Of a stretch of 64,000 nt of DNA, positions 51,520 through 61,569 are shown one piece after another. The notes beneath the pieces are model-generated. The model ran no database searches, was not told the origin of the DNA, and saw only the letters and a list, made by a program, of their open reading frames with translations. This DNA is from Streptococcus pluranimalium (GTDB lineage Bacteria > Bacillota > Bacilli > Lactobacillales > Streptococcaceae). The DNA is taken from positions 564,001 to 628,000 of the forward strand of contig NZ_CP025536.1 in NCBI RefSeq assembly GCF_002953735.1, written 5' to 3'. The translations under genes were made by a program, and so were the position numbers. Position 1 is the stretch's first letter, and each line of letters opens with the position of its first letter.

Positions 51520-52320
51520 ATGATGACTATTACGAAGAAAAATTTAGAAACAACTATTGGTGATTTATCGATTCACTACCGAAAAGGTAATCCGACGCTT
51601 ATTTTTCTCAGTGGTATTGGTAGCTTCCCAACCTTCGAAAATTTTTCAGCAATTATCAAACCTTTACCTAAAAACTTTGGTATCTTAACCCTTGATTATC
51701 CCAATATTGGAGAATCAAGTTTAAAGAATCAAAGAGAGCTCACATTGGTTGACTGGATAGAGGCTATTGAACTTGTATTAGATAGCTTACAAGTTGAGGA
51801 TTATATTTTGATTACTCATAGTATTGCTGGTATACTCGGACTTAGATTAATGACTAAACGATTAGGATGTAAAGGTTTTATAGGAATTGAACCTTCCACA
51901 GTAGCCATTTTGACGGGAATAGTTGATTATTCTCAAGAATTTGGACGAGTGAACCAAATTATTTCTGAAATAGGTGTTAGGAATTATTTACAGGGAATCT
52001 CTCGACAAGGGTTGAATGAAATAGAAAATAAAGCTCTTTGGGATGCTTTTGATAGAACTGAGAAGCGCTTATCAACTATTGCTGAATCTGATTTTGCTGC
52101 CTTTCCAGATTTGAATAAGAGTGACTTTGCTAGTCAACCTAGTATTCCAAAAGATATTCCTAGCTTTGTTTTTAGTCAAGCTTTTCGAAGAGAGGAATAT
52201 GAAGCGTCAGAGTATCAAAATCGAGAAGGTAGATACCACCTATATCTGACTGGTGATCATCATTATTTACATTGGACAGAAAGTGAAGCTATTCTTAAAG
52301 TCATCAAATCTGTTGTGTGA
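51520..52320 (+). CDS. Alpha/beta hydrolase
   Basis: This 266-residue cytoplasmic protein has the strand-loop LIFLSGIGSFPTFENFSAI (oxyanion region), a nucleophile elbow THSIAGILGLR (Ser in HSIAG instead of the usual GxSxG), and a C-terminal YLTGDHHYLHWTES with the likely catalytic His. The substrate is unknown. It follows lepA by 19 bases and may be cotranscribed. ATG 51520 or 51523 is possible. Confidence 0.8.
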   Translation: MMTITKKNLETTIGDLSIHYRKGNPTLIFLSGIGSFPTFENFSAIIKPLPKNFGILTLDYPNIGESSLKNQRELTLVDWIEAIELVLDSLQVEDYILITHSIAGILGLRLMTKRLGCKGFIGIEPSTVAILTGIVDYSQEFGRVNQIISEIGVRNYLQGISRQGLNEIENKALWDAFDRTEKRLSTIAESDFAAFPDLNKSDFASQPSIPKDIPSFVFSQAFRREEYEASEYQNREGRYHLYLTGDHHYLHWTESEAILKVIKSVV

Positions 52321-52373
52321 TATATCATTTGATTTTCAATTTCATTACTTCTATTTTTAATCTTTTATACTAT

Positions 52374-52430
52374 ATTGAAACCACTCCTGTGTTCTAGTTT
52401 ATTAGAGTTTAATAGGAGTTTTTTGTATAT
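52374..52430 (+). terminator. Terminator before the pilus operon
   Basis: ACTCCT / AGGAGT with inner CTAGTTTATTAG pairing, followed by TTTTTTG. The rest of 52321-52571 holds only the pilus promoter. Confidence 0.7.
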
Positions 52431-52534
52431 CCGAAAACTAGATGAATGGTATTATTTTGGTAAAAATCAAAAAATGAAATTATCAGATTTTTTTCTGGTT
52501 TTAAGTTGTTATTTCAATAAAAATACTTAAAATA

Positions 52535-52543
52535 TGCTATAAT
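52535..52543 (+). promoter_or_regulatory. Extended -10 promoter of the pilus operon
   Basis: TGC-TATAAT, -10 at 52538-52543, with no recognisable -35. The leader is about 20 bases. Confidence 0.6.
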
Positions 52544-52571: not shown

Positions 52572-52832
52572 TTGGAAAAAGAGTTAAAAAAATTAAAACG
52601 TGATCAATTATTAGAAATAATGTTGAGACAACAAGAAAAAATTGAAGAACAAGAAAAAGTGATTAGCGAGTTAGAACATAAATTAAATGATAAACGAATA
52701 GCAATAGAAACTTGTGGCTCTATTGCTGAAGCATCTTTAGTTTTAAATGATATCTTCAATTCAGCCCAAGCAGCAGCAGACCAATATTTGGATAATATTA
52801 AGCAACAAGCTAAAAACAATGGAGTTCATTGA
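52572..52832 (+). CDS. Small coiled-coil protein, first gene of the pilus operon
   Basis: The 86-residue soluble protein is rich in Glu, Lys and Gln. A heptad-like coiled coil covers about residues 1-45 (IMLRQQEKIEEQEKVISELE). A conserved-looking second half follows: GSIAEASLVLNDIFNSAQAAADQYL. Similar short proteins occur in front of signal peptidase genes in other Firmicutes, with no known function. It begins at TTG with AAAGGA 7 bases upstream. Its TGA overlaps the ATG of the signal peptidase, so the two are coupled. Confidence 0.75.
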   Translation: MEKELKKLKRDQLLEIMLRQQEKIEEQEKVISELEHKLNDKRIAIETCGSIAEASLVLNDIFNSAQAAADQYLDNIKQQAKNNGVH

Positions 52833-53404
52833 TGACAAAATTAAGCTTAAATTCTAAGGATTTTTCACGAGAATTGGAACGTGTGAGATATCAAAGACGG
52901 TTCTGGATGATCGTTAGAAATACGGTGTATATTTTATTGGGTGTAGCTTCAATTGCAATTTTAATTGCAGTTTTATGGTTACCGGTTTTACGAATCTATG
53001 GCAGATCGATGAATAAAACACTGTCTGAAGGTGATATTGTGATTAGTCAAAAAGGTTCAAAGTTTAAATCAGGTGAAGTCATAGCTTTTTATTACAATAA
53101 TAAAGTTCTTGTCAAGCGTGTTATTGCAAAATCAGGTGATTGGGTTGAAGTAACTCCTGAAGGTGATGTTTATGTCAACCAAAAAAAATTAAAAGAACCT
53201 TATATTATGGCGAAAGCTTTGGGAGAGAGTAATATTAAATATCCTTATCAAGTTCCTGATGGTCAGATTTTTGTGATGGGAGATAACCGTAAGACATCTA
53301 TTGATTCTAGAAATACGTCTATTGGTGGAGTCTCTCAAGAGCAGATTGTTGGTGAAGTTTCTTTTCGAATTTGGCCGATATCAAATATTGGACCAATCAG
53401 GTAA
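52832..53404 (+). CDS. Signal peptidase I of the pilus locus (SipA/LepA-type)
   Basis: The 190-residue S26 peptidase has one N-terminal membrane helix (about 31-52). The catalytic Ser59 is in YGRSM and Lys95 in VLVKRVIAKSGD. Box E, MGDNRKTSIDSRN, is also present. In S. pyogenes FCT loci the SipA homologue has lost these residues and works as a chaperone; here both are kept, so real peptidase activity is likely, perhaps on the pilins. ATG 52832 overlaps the preceding stop. Confidence 0.9.
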   Translation: MTKLSLNSKDFSRELERVRYQRRFWMIVRNTVYILLGVASIAILIAVLWLPVLRIYGRSMNKTLSEGDIVISQKGSKFKSGEVIAFYYNNKVLVKRVIAKSGDWVEVTPEGDVYVNQKKLKEPYIMAKALGESNIKYPYQVPDGQIFVMGDNRKTSIDSRNTSIGGVSQEQIVGEVSFRIWPISNIGPIR

Positions 53405-53424
53405 TATTGAGAGGTATACTGATT

Positions 53425-56400
53425 TTGAGAAAATATTATATGATTTTAAAAGAGTCTATTGTGAAGGGGAAGTACAAGAAGATATGGAAAAGTCTGTTCT
53501 GGGCGAGTATTTTGGTAACGACATTCTTAACCACTTACTTTTTAATTTTACCAGCAATCACAGTGGAGACTCAAAAAACGGATAATGTAGGAATATCATT
53601 ATCAAGCTCCTCCCCAGTGAATGAGACTCCTAAAGAAGTCACTGGTAGCCCCCCTTCTAGCGAAGATCAAACGGAATTTAAACATGATATAAAAACAGAA
53701 ACTTCAAGTGCTCAAAAAGAAGAAACCTCTGATTCTTCGTCAAACGACACAACACAAGAAACGACACCAAACGCTTCGAAAGAAAAAGAGACAGCTTTTC
53801 TTAAGGATACCTTAATTCATAAAGGTGAGGGCTTTGAGATTCACGTAACTGTTGGGGAAGAAGCTGAGCTTCCTAGAGATACTCATTTGGAAGTCTCAGA
53901 AGTGAAAGAGATGGATCAATCTTTTGAAACCTATAAACAAAAAACTCTTGAGAAGGTTTCTAGAAAAGATGACGAAATCAAAAGCTTATTTTTTTATGAT
54001 ATAACTCTCGTTTCGAACGGCAAGGAGATACAACCATCATCTGCCGTTAAAGTAGAAGTAGTGTATGATAATCCTTTAGAAGTCTCTGATGAAGAGTTAG
54101 AAATCGTTCACTTTAAAGACAATGGAGCTCTGGAAGTTCTAAAATCGAAAACTGATCCAGAGACAGTTGATTCTTCTAGTGATATTGCTTTTAGAACAGA
54201 ATCTTTTTCAGTATATGCCATTGTTCAACCGGATAACACGAAACTACCTCTGAGGACTTATATCTTCGAAAATGCTGATGGTTCGCAATATCTGTTTAAA
54301 ACAAATAGTGACACAGAAACAGATACTCAAATCATAAAAGACGGACAAAGTCTTCATGGTGTAGGGATTCCATATGTTGATGATGATAAGCATTTTAATG
54401 GATGGTATATTTTTAATAAAGATACGAACACTTACGGAGATGAAATTCACTTTGAAGAAGCTATTGAAGTGAAGCAAACAGAGACGATTTATGTTAGGCC
54501 AAGTTATGGAAATGTTGCCTACGTGACGTTTTATGATAATGAAGATGGCACTTTAGTTTTAGAGAAACATCAAGTTGCGCTAGAAGAGGGCAAAGGAACA
54601 GTAAATCTAGCTGAACACACGGCTGTTTCACCTTCAGCTACTCAAGTATTTGCAGGGTGGTCATTGACCAAAGGTGGTTCTGTGATTACTGAAAATATTA
54701 CTAACTATCCGATTGCTAAAGATACTGTTTTTTACCCAATATTTAAAGAATCTAAAAAGATTGAATTCAATACAGGTGACATTGGTGAGGGTGCACCTTA
54801 CGTAGCTCCGAAATTTGTTATTGAGGGTGAAAAAGCTGAAAGTATTAAGCCGACAGATCCGACTCGAAATGGTTACACATTTGGAGGATGGTATCGAGAT
54901 AGTAATTATCAAACGGCATTTGATTTTTCATCAACTGTTACTGAAGACATTGTTCTATACGCTAGATGGCTTCCTGCGACAGCCAACTACACGATTGTGT
55001 ATTGGCAACAGTCTAAAACAGATTCTAAAAATAGTTTAGCAGCAGATAAGACTTACGATTACGCAGGGCAAGTAAGCCGAACCGCCACTGTAGATTCGAT
55101 TGTTTCCCTGACATCTTCAGACAGGAATCCAGATTCTAAAGGATTTGTTTATACTAATGCGAGAGGAGAAACGAGTACTGTTGTAAAGGCAGATGGTTCA
55201 TCCATTATCAATGTCTATTTTGACCGAAAATTGATAACGATGCGTTTTTTAAATGATACATACTATAGAAGCTATACAGGACCAGTTGCTGTGAATAGTA
55301 CAGTATGGACTAGTCCAACCTATGCTCAGTATGTAACAACTTACACTGGCCTTTATGGAACAAGTTTAGCCGAAAATGGTTACACTTGGCCAAGTTCTGG
55401 AACTCAGAATTGGACGTACTATGCTTCGGGTGGTCAAGCTCGAGGAATGAGTTATCTAGGAGAATTTATTTTACCAGAAGATACGTATGATACCTCGAAT
55501 ACTGAGATTCGTTTTTATCGGAATGGTAGAAAGACCGTTAACTACTATTTTTATAAACAGAATATAGATGGTACCTATAGTAGCACTCCGACTGATGTTG
55601 GTTCTGGTCAAATGGCAACTTTTACTTTTTCAGAAAAATATAGTGGTTTTAATGTAGCCTGGTATAGGCGTTATTATTCTGGAACAACTAGTTCCTATGA
55701 TAGTGATTGGCGAAAAGCAGCAAATAATGGAACAACTCAAACTTTCTATACTTACGGAACCTACTATAATTCTGTAGATTATCCATTAGATTTGCATATT
55801 CAATATGACCGAAAGGCATATCATATTAATTTCTTAGATCCTCTGAATAATCAAGAACTTACTAATTTTGATCCAGTTAGTGTCTACTATGAAGATAATC
55901 TATCTAAATACAAGCCTGATACAACGATTGACAAACCTACTCCGAGTCTCCCTGGCTATCGCTGGGATGGTAAATGGTATAAAGACCAAACGTTGACCCA
56001 GGAGATTGATTGGTCGATTACTATGCCATCACATGACTTAAAGGTTTACGCTGGTTGGGAGAAAATTCGATATGATGTTACTATCGAAGCTAATGGAGGA
56101 GAATTGCTTGATACACAGGCAACATACTTCACTTTGGATTATGGTGAAAAAATTACAGAGTTTGCTAATATCACACGTGATTATGTAGAAGATCCAAATG
56201 GAGAGTACTATTATAGACACGATACGGATAATGGCCTTGCAACAGATGGTAGACATGCTCATTATACAAAAGACCCTACAGAACCAAACGTTGATACGAC
56301 CAAGCGTTATCGCTACGAGAAAGATGCTTATAAACTAGTAGGTTGGTACTACGTGAATGCTGATGGAACAACTCGTCCCTATAACTTTTCTGGAATCGTT

Positions 56401-57849
56401 GTTGGTGATACAACCTTGAGAGCTATTTGGCGTCGAGTAGGGGAATATAAGGTTAACTATAGCCCGATAGTGTATGACTACACAACCAATCAGCCAATGG
56501 TAGACGATAAAGGGAATGCTGTATTAGCAACCAATCTCCCTATTGATGGCAATTCCTATGATGATCAATCGCACTCAGCCATGTTGACAAGACCAACCAT
56601 TTCAGGAGAATACCGTTTTCGTGGTTGGTATTATGACGGGAAACTCTATAATCCACATGATGAATTTATTATTGATGCCGAATTAGCAGATGAGAATAAA
56701 ATCATTCATATATACCCTGTTTTTAAATCAGTTAATGATTTGAATGTGGAGACTACTAGAATAACCTATGACGGTAATGGTGGTGAAAAGGATGTTGATG
56801 GTAAAACTGTTACCCATGTTTCAGAAGAAGATTTGTTAATTAATACGGTTAAAACTTTACCGAAAGAGACATACTTTGATAGAGTAGGATACAATCTAGT
56901 GGGATGGAATACCAATGAAGCAGATGCTGATGCAGGTCACATTCAGTTTGAACTAGGTCAAGAAGTTGGAGTGGATAATCTCCCTAATTCTGAAAATGTT
57001 TTATATGCCGTATGGCAACCAAAACTCTACTCTGTTACTATTTCGAAAAAAGTTATAGGTAATGAATCTGACAAAGTAAAGAGTTTTACGTTTACTCCTG
57101 GTGGTGCTTTAACGAGTGCCAACTTTGCATTGAAAGATGGGGAAGTTAAGGTTTATCAAGATATTCCTTATGGTTCTACAATCAGTGTTGATGAACAATA
57201 TAATGAGGCTTATACGACAATTGAGCGTATTACTCATACGAACTTAGCATCTGGTAAGAGCGATAGAACGTATGAAAAAACTGGTCTAGCTGAATTAATC
57301 GTTGATGGTAATATTGAGATTAATTTTGTCAATGAACGACGACGACAAAATATTTACCTTCAGAAAGTTGATGTTGGCAATCTTTTGACAGGTTTAAAAA
57401 ATGCAGAGTTTACACTTTATAAGGTAGAAAACGGTCAACGTCAGCCATTACCAGACTATGAGCAGTTAGTCTCTGATGGCGATGGTTATCTAACAACTGG
57501 GAAAAGTAGGAAATTTAGCTTAGACATTGGTAACTATCAATTAATCGAGACAAAGGCACCAGATGGTTACTTATTAGAAGAAAACCCTATTGACATTTCA
57601 GTCACTAGTACTAGTGTCTCTTTGATTCAAAACGGCAATGCTTCTGAGGTAACAGTCTCTTCTTTAGATGATGGCTCAACTTTATTTAGTACCAAAGTGA
57701 CAAATTCACAAGGTATTGAGTTACCCAATACTGGTGGTATTGGACAATATATTTACGTTATACTAGGAGGAAGTTTAGCTATATTTGCGGCTTATCTCTA
57801 TTATGTTAAATCAAAAAAGAAAGGTACTGAATCATCAGTATTATATTAG
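53425..57849 (+). CDS. Giant LPXTG pilus tip/ancillary protein with InlB-B (Listeria-Bacteroides) repeats
   Basis: The product is about 1474 residues. An atypical long signal segment (WASILVTTFLTTYFLILPAI) is followed by a Ser/Glu-rich linker (about 50-140) and a domain of about 150 residues. About seven InlB-B-type repeats, with cores like GYTFGGWY...LYARW, flank an unrecognised Tyr-rich region (about residues 605-800). Next come a pilin-type domain (LYSVTISKKVIG) and a SpaA/Cna-B domain with E-box YQLIETKAPDGY. LPNTG at about 1433 with a membrane helix and basic tail ends it. The TTG at 53425 has GAGAGG 10 bases upstream; ATG 53440 is the alternative. Confidence 0.9.
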   Translation: MRKYYMILKESIVKGKYKKIWKSLFWASILVTTFLTTYFLILPAITVETQKTDNVGISLSSSSPVNETPKEVTGSPPSSEDQTEFKHDIKTETSSAQKEETSDSSSNDTTQETTPNASKEKETAFLKDTLIHKGEGFEIHVTVGEEAELPRDTHLEVSEVKEMDQSFETYKQKTLEKVSRKDDEIKSLFFYDITLVSNGKEIQPSSAVKVEVVYDNPLEVSDEELEIVHFKDNGALEVLKSKTDPETVDSSSDIAFRTESFSVYAIVQPDNTKLPLRTYIFENADGSQYLFKTNSDTETDTQIIKDGQSLHGVGIPYVDDDKHFNGWYIFNKDTNTYGDEIHFEEAIEVKQTETIYVRPSYGNVAYVTFYDNEDGTLVLEKHQVALEEGKGTVNLAEHTAVSPSATQVFAGWSLTKGGSVITENITNYPIAKDTVFYPIFKESKKIEFNTGDIGEGAPYVAPKFVIEGEKAESIKPTDPTRNGYTFGGWYRDSNYQTAFDFSSTVTEDIVLYARWLPATANYTIVYWQQSKTDSKNSLAADKTYDYAGQVSRTATVDSIVSLTSSDRNPDSKGFVYTNARGETSTVVKADGSSIINVYFDRKLITMRFLNDTYYRSYTGPVAVNSTVWTSPTYAQYVTTYTGLYGTSLAENGYTWPSSGTQNWTYYASGGQARGMSYLGEFILPEDTYDTSNTEIRFYRNGRKTVNYYFYKQNIDGTYSSTPTDVGSGQMATFTFSEKYSGFNVAWYRRYYSGTTSSYDSDWRKAANNGTTQTFYTYGTYYNSVDYPLDLHIQYDRKAYHINFLDPLNNQELTNFDPVSVYYEDNLSKYKPDTTIDKPTPSLPGYRWDGKWYKDQTLTQEIDWSITMPSHDLKVYAGWEKIRYDVTIEANGGELLDTQATYFTLDYGEKITEFANITRDYVEDPNGEYYYRHDTDNGLATDGRHAHYTKDPTEPNVDTTKRYRYEKDAYKLVGWYYVNADGTTRPYNFSGIVVGDTTLRAIWRRVGEYKVNYSPIVYDYTTNQPMVDDKGNAVLATNLPIDGNSYDDQSHSAMLTRPTISGEYRFRGWYYDGKLYNPHDEFIIDAELADENKIIHIYPVFKSVNDLNVETTRITYDGNGGEKDVDGKTVTHVSEEDLLINTVKTLPKETYFDRVGYNLVGWNTNEADADAGHIQFELGQEVGVDNLPNSENVLYAVWQPKLYSVTISKKVIGNESDKVKSFTFTPGGALTSANFALKDGEVKVYQDIPYGSTISVDEQYNEAYTTIERITHTNLASGKSDRTYEKTGLAELIVDGNIEINFVNERRRQNIYLQKVDVGNLLTGLKNAEFTLYKVENGQRQPLPDYEQLVSDGDGYLTTGKSRKFSLDIGNYQLIETKAPDGYLLEENPIDISVTSTSVSLIQNGNASEVTVSSLDDGSTLFSTKVTNSQGIELPNTGGIGQYIYVILGGSLAIFAAYLYYVKSKKKGTESSVLY

Positions 57850-57858
57850 GAGAAAATT

Positions 57859-59316
57859 ATGAAAAAACAACTAATAAAAGGGTTATTACTTACAACTTTA
57901 GTGCTTGGAACGGCAGCACCTCTTGCAGATCAGGTGGTCTTTGCTGAAGGTCCAGGTTCAATTACTGTTGAGAGTACTAACGCAGGGGCGAAGTATCAAG
58001 CTTTTAAAATCTTTGATGCAACCTACTCTGGTGATGCAACGTCATACACCATTCCAGAAGGATTAGAAGCTACTTATAAGGGAACAGGAAACTTTGAACA
58101 ACTGTTTTCAACATCAACAAACGGTGGCAAAACTTATGTGACAAAGAAAGAGTCTGCATCTGATACGGATATTGCAGCTTGGACAAAAGCAGTCGTAGCG
58201 GCTGCTAACATTCAGCCATCTGATACACAGACTGCAGCTGGCGCAACAGCAACTCTGGCAGTTCCGTATGGTTATTATTATGTTGGAACGGATGTGAATG
58301 GTGGCGCAACAACCATGGTAACGTCAGCTTCTCCTCAGGCAACAGTTCGTGAAAAAAACAACGAACCATCATGGGGTGAAAATGGTGGTAAAACTGTTGG
58401 TGACGACAAGACATATGCTGTTGGTGAAACAGTGACTTATACGCTAGACTATCAAAATGCGACTTATTACACCGCAGGTGAGAAAGTGTATCAATATGTG
58501 GTTAAAGATGCTCTGCCAACAGGTGTTGATTTTTCTGAAGGAACAGTTAAAGTGACAGTAAACGGTGTTGCCTTAACTCAGGGGACAGGAACAGGGACAT
58601 ATGCTATTACGGAAGGTACAAATGGCTTTGAAGTGACGATTCCATGGGCAGCTACTAATACAGCTAGTGATGCTGCAGGTTTAGGTGAAAAGGATGACTT
58701 TTTCTATGATCCAATATCAACGATTAAAGTAACTTATCAAGGTGTTCTTTTGAAAGATGCTACCGAAGGTTCTGATAAATACGACACAAATAAAAACTTA
58801 GCTACTATCAATCCTAACACTAAAACAAATGATCCCGGTAAAGAAGAATATGTCTATAATGGAAAAATTACAATTGATAAAGTAGCGGCCAATAGTGACA
58901 CAAAGTTACAAGGTGCTAAATTTGTTCTTCGTCAAAAAGGTTCAGAGAATTATTTAAACCTAGCTGCAGGTACTGAAAATGTAACATTTGGTTCACGTAA
59001 CAATGCAACTGAATTTACAACTGATCAAAATGGTGCAGTGTCGATTTCAGGTTTAGATGCTGGTGACTATGAGCTTATCGAAACACAGGCTCCTGAAGGT
59101 TATAATCTTTTAGATTCTCCTGTATCCGTTACTTTAGGACTAGGTAAGGCAGATGGGAAAGATAATCTTTTGGTAACTTCAAAAGTCGAAAATAATAGTG
59201 GTGCCGAATTACCATCAACTGGTGGTATTGGAACAACTATATTTTATACTGTTGGAACAATTCTGATTGTTGCAGGTGGTGTAGTATTAATTGCTCGTCG
59301 TCGTGCGCGTGATTAA
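57859..59316 (+). CDS. Major (backbone) pilin, LPSTG
   Basis: The 485-residue pilin has a signal peptide (1-29, ending DQVVFAE), an N-terminal domain ending near VREKN (Lys166, a candidate linking Lys), an isopeptide-forming middle domain (YAVGETVTYTLDYQNA, about 180-340), and a C-terminal Cna-B/SpaA domain with E-box YELIETQAPEGYNLL (from 404). It ends with LPSTG at 451, a membrane helix and RRRARD. No YPK pilin motif is seen. Sortases polymerise such subunits by Lys-Thr bonds. It sits 9 bases behind the tip gene, with AGGAG. Confidence 0.93.
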   Translation: MKKQLIKGLLLTTLVLGTAAPLADQVVFAEGPGSITVESTNAGAKYQAFKIFDATYSGDATSYTIPEGLEATYKGTGNFEQLFSTSTNGGKTYVTKKESASDTDIAAWTKAVVAAANIQPSDTQTAAGATATLAVPYGYYYVGTDVNGGATTMVTSASPQATVREKNNEPSWGENGGKTVGDDKTYAVGETVTYTLDYQNATYYTAGEKVYQYVVKDALPTGVDFSEGTVKVTVNGVALTQGTGTGTYAITEGTNGFEVTIPWAATNTASDAAGLGEKDDFFYDPISTIKVTYQGVLLKDATEGSDKYDTNKNLATINPNTKTNDPGKEEYVYNGKITIDKVAANSDTKLQGAKFVLRQKGSENYLNLAAGTENVTFGSRNNATEFTTDQNGAVSISGLDAGDYELIETQAPEGYNLLDSPVSVTLGLGKADGKDNLLVTSKVENNSGAELPSTGGIGTTIFYTVGTILIVAGGVVLIARRRARD

Positions 59317-59337
59317 GAAAATAGGTTAGATTACTCG

Positions 59338-60216
59338 ATGAAAACATTATCAGATAAGCTCGTTTCCTATCTGCTTATCGGAGCTATGATACTTGGGATA
59401 GGGTTAATAGCTTACCCCTCGGTATCTGATTGGTGGAATTCTTATCATCAATCTAGGGCTATCATGGACTACCAGGATAAAGTTAGTCATATAGATAAAC
59501 GTCAATATCAGAAAATTCTTGCTCGAGCTGAGAATTACAATAAACAATTTCTTGAAACAAATATAAAATGGCAATTAACCAAAGAGGAAAAAAAGGAATA
59601 CAATTCTCAGTTATCCATTGATCAGTCAGGAAATATGGGTTTTATCACGATTCCAAAAATTAACGTTAATCTCCCAATTTTTCACGGTACTAGTGAAGAT
59701 GTTCTTCAGACTTCAATTGGGCATTTAGAAGGTACGAGTCTGCCTGTGGGAGGTCAGTCAACGCACTCGGTATTATCAGGTCATCGAGGCTTGCCGTCGG
59801 CAAAATTGTTTTCAGATTTGGATAAACTGCGTGTGGGAGATCGATGGACTGTTAATATTCTTGATGAGACGTATACCTATGAAGTTGATCAAATTAGAAC
59901 AGTTTTGCCAAAAGATTTAAGCAATTTGCAAATTGAAGAGGGCAAAGATTACCAAACCCTATTAACATGTACACCTTATGGTATTAATACTCATCGCCTT
60001 TTGGTTAGGGGACACCGAGTTGCAAATGAGGATGGTGATGCTTTGGTCATTGCGGATGCTATTCAAATTGATCCTATTTATATAGCTCCCTTCATTGGAT
60101 TTCCTATTTTACTGTTATTGCTGATGATTTTTCTTCGGTTAATGCGAAAAGATGATCGAAGAAAGCAAATTGTACTGAGTTGGTTTAGAAAGGAACAATC
60201 AAATGAAAAGAATTAA
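59338..60216 (+). CDS. Pilus-type class C sortase
   Basis: The 292-residue transpeptidase has an N-terminal helix (10-28), catalytic His149 (LSGHRG), Cys211 (TLLTCTPYG) and Arg220 (NTHRLLVRGHR), and a second C-terminal helix (about 245-268) before a basic tail. That two-helix layout is typical of class C pilin polymerases. The usual DP(F/W/Y) lid motif ahead of the barrel is not seen in residues 60-100. It should polymerise the LPSTG pilin. It overlaps the next gene by 14 bases. Confidence 0.92.
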   Translation: MKTLSDKLVSYLLIGAMILGIGLIAYPSVSDWWNSYHQSRAIMDYQDKVSHIDKRQYQKILARAENYNKQFLETNIKWQLTKEEKKEYNSQLSIDQSGNMGFITIPKINVNLPIFHGTSEDVLQTSIGHLEGTSLPVGGQSTHSVLSGHRGLPSAKLFSDLDKLRVGDRWTVNILDETYTYEVDQIRTVLPKDLSNLQIEEGKDYQTLLTCTPYGINTHRLLVRGHRVANEDGDALVIADAIQIDPIYIAPFIGFPILLLLLMIFLRLMRKDDRRKQIVLSWFRKEQSNEKN

Positions 60217-60853
60217 GCTAATACTGATAACCTTTCTAATCCTCGTTGGTATCACTTTTCAAGAGAAAGTCTCTGCCCAAGTGGAACAAAAGGGATCAAT
60301 TGTTATTTCTCCAACTTATAATGGTGTTCCTGTAGTCGGTGGTGATTTACTCGTATATCAAGTGGCAAATTGGTCAGAAAAGGATAATCGCTTTGCTTTT
60401 ACAAAAGAGTTTTCATCAACAGCGCTTTCTCTTGAACATTTGATAAGTCCTGAGTTAGATCAGTCAGATATCCAAGTTTTAGTGAATAATAGTCATCATG
60501 TCAAACCCTATCAGTACATTGATAGCATACCTCAAAAGGGTGTTGTTTTAGAGAATCTCTCGCAAGGCATCTACCTATTTGTACAAAAGGAGTCGGCTCA
60601 AGGTTATGAGAAAATGAATCCTTTTGTGATCAGTATTCCAAACAATGGGTCATTATCTGTAGAAGCTAAGGAAAAAATGAGTCCGATCTCTAGCTCGGCC
60701 TCTCCGTCAAAAATAGTCAGCTCAAAGGATGACGTGCCAAGGGAAAAGGTGAAAGTATTGCCGTTCACAGGACAAGTTTGGTGGCCTGTGTATCTATCGT
60801 TAGTGTGTGGAATTATCTGTTTAGTGCTTTCAATGATTGGAAAAAAAGAATGA
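60203..60853 (+). CDS. Minor (base/anchor) pilin, LPFTG
   Basis: This 216-residue protein has a signal peptide (1-25, ending VSAQ), one pilin-like domain (GSIVISPTYNGVPVVGGDLL, with GIYLFVQKESAQGYEKMNPF as its E-box-like end), a Ser/Pro linker (about 155-180) and the sorting signal LPFTG, a helix and GKKE. Size and place fit the AP2-type subunit that joins the pilus to the wall. It overlaps both neighbouring sortase genes. Confidence 0.9.
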   Translation: MKRIKLILITFLILVGITFQEKVSAQVEQKGSIVISPTYNGVPVVGGDLLVYQVANWSEKDNRFAFTKEFSSTALSLEHLISPELDQSDIQVLVNNSHHVKPYQYIDSIPQKGVVLENLSQGIYLFVQKESAQGYEKMNPFVISIPNNGSLSVEAKEKMSPISSSASPSKIVSSKDDVPREKVKVLPFTGQVWWPVYLSLVCGIICLVLSMIGKKE

Positions 60854-61443
60854 TTAATCGAAATGTTCGCATCTATTTGTTGAGGCTATTAGGTATTGCC
60901 TGTATCATTTTTTCAGTCTTTTATACTTGGAATAACATCGATGCAGCAAGGACGGCTGAAAAGTCAAGTCAAGATATCAACCAGAAATTACAGATAGATC
61001 AATCGTCAAAAAGGCTTTTATCAGAAAATGATGCTATGCCTGTCTCCGCTGTATCTGGTGTGGACTATCTTGGAAAATTAACGATTACTAGTGAGAATAT
61101 TACTCTACCAGTAGCTGCTAAATATCGTTTTGAACAAATGTCACTAACACCGACTCGATACAGAGGTTCATATAAAACCAATGATCTTGTCATCTGTGCT
61201 CATAATTATCGTTATCAATTTGATCCACTTAGGACGATTCCTATGGGAGAAAAGATTGAATTTGAAACAGTTGATGGTAAAACATATTCTTATGTGATTA
61301 CAAATCGAGAAATCATTAAGCCAACAGCAGTTGAAGAGGTTATTAAGGAGACGGCAGGTGATACTGACTGGGATTTGAGTTTATTCACCTGTACTCCAAG
61401 CGGTGCTGCTAGGGTAATCATTCGGTGCCGATTAGTTGCTTAA
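60850..61443 (+). CDS. Second pilus-locus sortase (short, single membrane helix)
   Basis: This sortase of 197 residues has an N-terminal helix (8-27), catalytic His118 (VICAHNY), Cys181 (LFTCTPSG) and Arg188 (AARVIIRCRL), and no C-terminal helix. It is shorter than its partner and resembles the accessory second sortase of PI-2/PI-2b islands. It may attach the finished pilus or the minor pilin. ATG 60850 overlaps the previous stop (ATGA), and this start replaces a longer frame that lies in the previous gene. Confidence 0.87.
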   Translation: MINRNVRIYLLRLLGIACIIFSVFYTWNNIDAARTAEKSSQDINQKLQIDQSSKRLLSENDAMPVSAVSGVDYLGKLTITSENITLPVAAKYRFEQMSLTPTRYRGSYKTNDLVICAHNYRYQFDPLRTIPMGEKIEFETVDGKTYSYVITNREIIKPTAVEEVIKETAGDTDWDLSLFTCTPSGAARVIIRCRLVA

Positions 61444-61487
61444 CATTGGTAGCTGACTTTAATGGATGATAAGATTTTAAATGATTT

Positions 61488-61538
61488 TTAAGTGATTAAG
61501 ATGTCGTATTTACGATGTTTTGGTCACTTTTTTTATCT
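61488..61538 (+). terminator. Terminator of the pilus operon
   Basis: Long imperfect hairpin AGTGATTAA..TCGT / ACGA..TTGGTCACT followed by TTTTTT. Confidence 0.7.
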
Positions 61539-61569
61539 AGTTAAGAAGGCTGTAGTAATTGTTAAGGTT

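Follow-up and report, generated by a model that had tools for sequence, protein, structure and literature searches.

A predicted PI-2b-type pilus operon in Streptococcus pluranimalium: comparison across species and genomic site

The window analyzed here, 64,000 nucleotides of Streptococcus pluranimalium (NZ_CP025536.1, positions 564,001 to 628,000), contains an array of seven open reading frames (ORFs) on the + strand (52572-61443), organized as orf-lep-AP1-BP-SrtC1-AP2-Srt2, which from its sequence is almost certainly a PI-2b-type pilus operon in a Streptococcus other than Streptococcus agalactiae (group B Streptococcus, GBS). Judged in the same way, the operon is complete and probably working, and the account of it given below, including how its products would act together, is very likely right as a whole. 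A first-pass annotation of this DNA had placed the seven genes here, and all of the ORFs are confirmed in position and strand, with family scans backing every assignment but those of orf and AP2; it had also proposed a complete PI-2b-like operon, and the gene order is indeed that published for GBS PI-2b (orf, lep, ap1, spb1, srtC1, ap2, srt2; PMC5249243, with papers cited here and below from excerpts). Its further suggestion of a little-described system fails, since this same seven-gene order is in print and the Streptococcus suis srtF cluster is described as highly homologous to PI-2b (PMC2797073). The system itself is already known, and what is new here is the comparison across species and the genomic site. 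The PI-2b pili of GBS are studied as virulence factors and vaccine antigens, and orthologues in other streptococci, like the relatives in rumen Clostridia, show which of their parts are kept.

Organization and likeness to known pilus systems

The genes, their order and families, the catalytic and cross-linking residues, and the coupling of the AP2 signal to Srt2 in streptococci are established directly. The backbone pilin (BP) is a SpaH/EbpB-type major pilin (107 bits, cut-off 95) that matches the solved structure of GBS Spb1 (4uzg). The two isopeptide sets of the GBS protein, in D2 and D3, K187-D225-N330 and K358-E423-N462 (PMC4420484), correspond to K178-D217-N313 and K341-E408-N445, with all six GBS-named residues kept. 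GBS BP also has a noncanonical pilin lysine within VTPNATIHEKN (PMC4420484); at the end of D1 the window has ATVREKN, with K166, aligned to the GBS ATIHEKN, and this lysine is present in 12 of the 12 aligned BP sequences, window included. The E-box differs, being a canonical YELIETQAPEGY in the window and LVEK in GBS (PMC4420484). SrtC1 is a class C sortase (NF033745, cut-off 160 bits) that matches 4d7w, the S. agalactiae SrtC1 structure, and in all likelihood is the pilus polymerase. SrtC1 and Srt2 are 65% and 48% identical, respectively, to those of S. agalactiae ATCC 13813. GBS PI-2b is thus alike in its seven-gene order, BP and SrtC1 homology, isopeptide residues, pilin lysine motif and the LPFTGQxWWP signal of AP2, with the difference that AP1 ends in LPSTG in GBS and in LPNTG here.

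Two genes open the operon. Lep is a signal peptidase I (TIGR02227, cut-off 47 bits) that retains the catalytic Ser (GRSM) and Lys (LVKRV). The orf product carries the pattern GSIAEA...AQ.AAD.YL, conserved in an alignment of six species; it looks coiled-coil-like by eye and has no Pfam or NCBIfam family match. The orf gene stands immediately 5' of lep for 31 of the 32 streptococcal and 21 of the 38 other lep genes in the counted loci.

The S. suis srtF cluster (sipF-sfp2-sfp1-srtF) shares the succession of Lep, giant ancillary pilin, backbone and class C sortase, with the peptidase Ser and Lys kept, but it is without AP2 and a second sortase, and its sfp2 is a pseudogene in strain P1/7. In pneumococcal PI-2 and the FCT region of group A Streptococcus (GAS), a gene resembling a signal peptidase likewise accompanies those for pilins and sortases, although GAS SipA is without the catalytic Ser and Lys that the window's Lep has (PMC2797073). 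In GBS, AP1 is at the tip of the pilus and AP2 at the base (PMC5496222). By homology, SrtC1 would join the LPST end of one BP to K166 of the next and would cap the fiber with the giant AP1 at its tip, and Srt2 would join AP2 (LPFTGQVWWP) at the base and then fix the fiber to the wall as housekeeping SrtA does. Lep would process the signal of a pilin, perhaps AP1, and orf would be a partner of lep. The gene orders of pneumococcal PI-2 and GAS FCT differ from that of the window.

Distribution and the AP2/Srt2 module

Relatives of SrtC1 are present in 41 of 284 Streptococcus genomes, at 56 places, and Srt2 (E ≤ 1e-10) in seven. The seven genes occur in order in five genomes besides the window's: S. 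varani (G013), S. moroccensis (G140), S. gallinaceus (G077), S. agalactiae ATCC 13813 (G012, with AP1 and BP partly masked), and G071; the synteny of the seven genes, a check put forward in the first-pass annotation, thus goes beyond chance. A further locus, in G086, is cut by a contig end. The neighborhoods examined are 36 of the 56 (the window, the five above and 30 more), the other 20 being 44-51% identical. Among the 30, Lep, AP1, BP and SrtC are in order in 27, counting L156, in which a giant LPxTG protein missed by the AP1 profile occupies the place of AP1; the exceptions are L130 (interrupted), L153 (cut by a contig end) and L157 (without partners). None of the 30 has AP2 or Srt2, and this shorter Lep-AP1-BP-SrtC form matches the S. 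suis srtF cluster. AP1 appears broken in two relatives, by other ORFs in L130 (G087) and by an in-frame stop in L151 (G022).

Outside the streptococci, 68 loci with SrtC1 relatives (51-65% identity) are mostly from rumen or gut Clostridia, with a few from Erysipelotrichaceae; they derive from the best 80 of 375 relatives in a contig collection (79 loci). The counts of AP2 signals, of Srt2 and lep neighbors and of the AP1 motif given here exclude repeat-genome loci (L041, L042, L044, L046, L053, L075, L085, L095, L107, L110 and L113) and L045, the truncated G086 locus. Many of these contigs are short. An LPxTGQxWW protein lies within 3 kb downstream in 29 of the 68 and an Srt2 relative within 4.5 kb in 17, with both present in 14. 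L089 has the full orf-lep-AP1-BP-SrtC-AP2-Srt2 order, and its AP2 ends in LPQTGQLWWP. PI-2b-like operons with AP2 and Srt2 are also seen in L056, L054, L084 and others, some with additional giant pilins; the Clostridial operons differ from that of the window in the third residue of the AP2 signal, usually Q, and in the extra pilins of some. A limited literature search found no paper naming them. A search of the same collection with BP alone confirmed no relatives, the query being too narrow, as BP relatives do exist there; against plasmids, BP gives 22 partial matches below 60% identity.

The sorting signals set AP2 apart. In the six seven-gene streptococci, window included, BP always has LPSTGG, AP1 has LPNTG in three and LPSTG in three, and AP2 has LPFTGQ in five and LPYTGQ in one, followed in each of the six by xWWP; the truncated G086 locus has the same AP2 signal. 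In Clostridia it is mostly LPQTGQLWW, with Q the usual third residue. Since the third residue varies (F or Y, and Q in Clostridia), the common mark of AP2 is TGQxWWP. The idea that the third residue (N, S or F) directs each subunit is accordingly upheld only in part: N against S as a discriminator of AP1 from BP is ruled out by the even split in AP1, while AP2 is distinguished by LP[FY]TGQxWWP. Across 35 other streptococcal loci, the AP2 signal and Srt2 occur together in five and one alone in none. The tie is looser in the 68 non-streptococcal loci, where Srt2 goes undetected beside the signal in 15 and the reverse holds in three, some of them at contig ends.

The residue after LPxTG in BP was considered as a second mark of the module. 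It is G in all six streptococci with AP2 and Srt2, and among 28 without the module (L128-L156) it is S in 20, A in five and G in three. A rule of TGG with the module and TGS or TGA without it was rejected, as all 35 non-streptococcal BP signals have G, with or without AP2; with only two independent contrasts in the tree, the rule cannot reach significance, and the association, which is phylogenetically confounded, is a hint only.

Srt2 is a sortase by Pfam (53 bits, cut-off 26.6) with invariant His118, Cys181 and two Arg residues, and it falls below the cut-offs of all five NCBIfam sortase models listed, among which there is no class A model; against the class C model it scores 31 bits for a cut-off of 160. 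Its structure model (predicted local distance difference test [pLDDT] 89.5) has its only membrane helix at the N-terminus, lacks a lid, ends at the last strand without a C-terminal membrane helix, and has a class-A-like topology, with streptococcal SrtA cores superposing at about 2.5-3.1 Å. The class C features (profile, lid and C-terminal membrane helix) are absent from Srt2 as modeled, and the single helix, the missing lid and the SrtA-like core fit a wall-anchoring enzyme. AP2 itself matches a family only below threshold (27 bits, cut-off 47), and among 236 candidates a protein search gives seven relatives at E ≤ 1e-5, of which the closest is 97% identical and two are from S. agalactiae. 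A review notes, citing Lazzarin 2015, that anchoring can proceed without SrtA (PMC5817068). It is likely that Srt2 anchors the pilus through AP2.

Several points weigh against the PI-2b reading and the roles given to its enzymes. In GBS, Lazzarin 2015 reportedly found that SrtC1-2b alone polymerizes and that Srt2-2b anchors through the minor subunit, and is said to have placed the second sortase outside the known classes; the backing for the SrtC1-2b and Srt2-2b conclusions is limited to one review sentence (PMC5817068) and one introduction (PMC5249243). The Foldseek matches of the Srt2 model are of both class C, at ranks 1 and 2 by E-value, and class A, whose values are no better than those of class C, and this fold search leaves the class of the modeled enzyme unsettled. 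Every enzymatic step is a sequence-based prediction for this species. Lastly, the window's operon lies between lepA and mscL, unlike the GBS PI-2b locus, which is in the core genome beside the antigen B operon (PMC5249243).

The same fold ranking, together with the invariant His118, Cys181 and Arg residues, is what would favor Srt2 as a second pilin polymerase, with both sortases polymerizing and housekeeping SrtA anchoring; pili with two class C sortases are commonly described as anchored in that way. This is unlikely, however, given the low class C score and the model without lid or C-terminal membrane helix, and given that AP2 and Srt2 are absent together from 30 streptococcal loci whose sortase belongs to the same family, and form a separable module. 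A different reading is that the operon is an srtF-type cluster with two extra genes, unrelated in origin, at its end. Its upstream genes do share the srtF-type layout of 27 of the 30 loci, and the published homology of srtF to PI-2b speaks for it too; but AP2 and Srt2 follow SrtC1 in six of the six seven-gene streptococci, and 14 of the 68 non-streptococcal loci carry both nearby, so that the module belongs to the pilus family. A quick SrtC1 tree of 97 of 102 sequences (five of at least 400 amino acids [aa] were left out) places the window beside S. varani, S. moroccensis, S. gallinaceus and G071 at a support of 84, which is not strong, and S. agalactiae among shorter loci, those of S. pseudoporcinus and others, at 99; with these groupings split, at least two changes of state of the module are needed among 34 streptococcal sequences, which also counts against this reading, and it is improbable. 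A decaying or silent operon, left from an island, would find precedent in the broken AP1 genes of G087 and G022 and is very improbable here, as none of the seven frames is interrupted, the residues for catalysis and cross-linking persist, and Shine-Dalgarno-like sequences and a strong terminator are present. For the preferred reading, of a PI-2b pilus polymerized by SrtC1 and anchored by Srt2, the S. pluranimalium genome has a convenient content of three sortases by Pfam family (SrtC1, Srt2 and one elsewhere), making assembly dissectable with few deletions. The comparison sharpens two questions, the role of the pilus-linked signal peptidase and how Srt2 chooses AP2.

AP1 and the pilus-linked signal peptidase

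AP1, the giant predicted tip pilin, contains InlB-type B-repeats, a CnaB/SpaA domain and an LPXTG anchor (LPNTG). The distinct tip noted in the first-pass annotation is borne out, in that no von Willebrand factor A (vWA) domain is found in AP1 by Pfam, such domains being common in tip pilins (vWA tips are mentioned in PMC5817068). The structure model is poor (pLDDT 69.9; predicted template modeling score 0.35), and its match to the InlB B-repeats of 2y5p has a template modeling score of 0.82 (target-normalized, 77 columns) at E 0.027; an identification of the tip from structure was dropped because of the poor model, with matches only to InlB B-repeats and otherwise weak.

The N-terminus of AP1 is unusual in having a basic stretch and a membrane helix followed by the motif YxLILPAxTxE (in its longer form, TTYxLILPAxTxE), which reads YFLILPAITVE in the window; the BP and AP2 signals are of an ordinary-looking A-x-A type. 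The motif is present in 52 of 55 AP1 proteins of at least 900 aa and in four of 12 AP1 fragments, and is found in none of 71 BP, 40 AP2 or 1166 unlabeled ORFs without LPxTG and in one of 12 unlabeled LPxTG proteins, with no hit in any further class. A stricter initial pattern, LILPA.[ST] within 140 residues of the N-terminus, is present in 39 of 67 AP1-labeled ORFs including fragments, in none of the same BP and AP2 proteins, and in two of 1178 unlabeled ORFs, both giant LPxTG proteins. The pattern was loosened after the misses were inspected, such that sensitivity is fitted and specificity less so; some of the sequences counted are near-copies, and the window's own AP1 is left out of the counts. 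No occurrence of the motif strings was found in open PMC papers.

A profile of the motif region matches in 66 of 279 genomes at E ≤ 0.01. There are 47 places at E 2.2e-6 or better, 44 of them no more than 16 kb from an SrtC1-like gene and the remaining three in G112 and G294. Weaker matches mostly fall in short frames and look like chance. In the window's genome the profile matches AP1 at 5e-21 and its next place at 6e-4. A Lep relative lies within 1.5 kb in all 30 of the AP1-motif loci fetched, the G112 copy being in two pieces.

These results and a published S. suis mutant together raise the tentative idea that Lep mainly serves AP1. The operon might then carry a private signal peptidase dedicated to the tip pilin, whose noncanonical membrane-end signal the housekeeping signal peptidase would handle poorly. 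Speculatively, tip and base would each be addressed by an enzyme of their own, Lep for AP1 and Srt2 for the TGQxWWP of AP2, with the shaft left to the common machinery and SrtC1. In S. suis P1/7, whose AP1 counterpart sfp2 has decayed to a pseudogene, backbone export and polymerization persist upon deletion of sipF (PMC2797073); if Lep is dedicated to AP1, the sparing of backbone export in a strain with a dead AP1 gene would follow from it. Larger backbone polymers are nonetheless fewer in that mutant, and the signal-peptidase-like SipA is reported as essential for polymerization of GAS T3 and pneumococcal PI-2 pili (PMC2797073), both of which argue against such a dedication. Also against it, the tie between AP1 motif and Lep is not independent of the conservation of the operon.

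Genomic site and operon layout

The operon is flanked by lepA and a hydrolase gene on one side and by mscL and dnaG on the other. The window's lepA is 87% identical to that of G095 (the best match), 86% to that of G083 and 82% to that of S. agalactiae (G012). G095 and G083 both have lepA, mscL and dnaG as neighbors, with about 0.8 and 1.1 kb, respectively, between lepA and mscL, and pilus genes have no match at this site in either. The simplest reading is insertion at lepA-mscL in the window's lineage, with loss of the operon from G095 and G083 as a possible alternative. The upstream alpha/beta hydrolase gene (51520-52320) has no match in the lepA region of four relatives and may have come with or before the pilus genes. 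In G207 and G208, the next nearest by lepA, the stretch examined showed neither mscL nor dnaG, so the gene order itself varies. No flanking repeats were seen, with each flank searched only within itself.

Table 1. Predicted features of the pilus locus, in window coordinates
Feature	Position	Strand	Basis
Terminator-like hairpin and T run, likely of the upstream hydrolase gene	52383..52419	+	Fold z -2.9 over 52370-52430
Extended -10 TGCTATAAT, putative operon promoter	52535..52543	+	Sequence reading, prediction
orf, 86 aa, TTG start	52572..52832	+	Aligned across six species
lep, signal peptidase I-like, 190 aa	52832..53404	+	TIGR02227 127 bits; motifs; alignment
AP1, giant predicted tip pilin, 1474 aa, LPNTG	53425..57849	+	Families, motif, alignment
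BP, backbone pilin, 485 aa, LPSTG	57859..59316	+	Spb1 4uzg E 2.2e-68; residue mapping
SrtC1, class C sortase, predicted polymerase	59338..60216	+	NF033745 286 bits; 4d7w E 6e-105
AP2, small predicted base/anchor pilin, 216 aa, LPFTGQVWWP	60203..60853	+	Sorting signal, alignment
Srt2, second sortase, 197 aa, predicted wall-anchoring	60850..61443	+	Pfam, structure model
Intrinsic terminator	61490..61529	+	18-pair stem and T run; z -7.0 over 61480-61540

Three starts were corrected (Table 1). Those of lep and Srt2 are the ATGs at 52832 and 60850 (52829 and 60778 in the ORF list), and that of AP1 is the TTG at 53425, the column at which four aligned orthologues begin; AP1 consequently does not overlap lep. 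The genes had been described as following without gaps and with many overlaps, which is true of three of the six junctions (orf/lep, 1 nt; SrtC1/AP2, 14 nt; AP2/Srt2, 4 nt), whereas the other three have gaps of 20 nt (lep-AP1), 9 nt (AP1-BP) and 21 nt (BP-SrtC1). Shine-Dalgarno-like sequences precede most starts.

A single transcription unit is predicted from the layout. Of the one promoter and one terminator claimed for it, the terminator is strong by its fold against shuffles, while the promoter is only a prediction: the putative extended -10 is without a good -35, a 9-of-12 site at 52506-52533 is among those listed by the promoter scan, and the region holds 48 promoter-like sites against 39 (standard deviation 5.7) in shuffles. 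The weaker upstream hairpin, which stands between the hydrolase gene and the pilus operon, is absent from the list of the terminator scan.

The lepA-mscL spot may be an insertion hotspot. In G083, the closest relative with a complete locus here, a small transposase-like ORF (L159, 11568-12032), presumably of the IS200 type, occupies the lepA-mscL interval that holds the pilus genes in the window.

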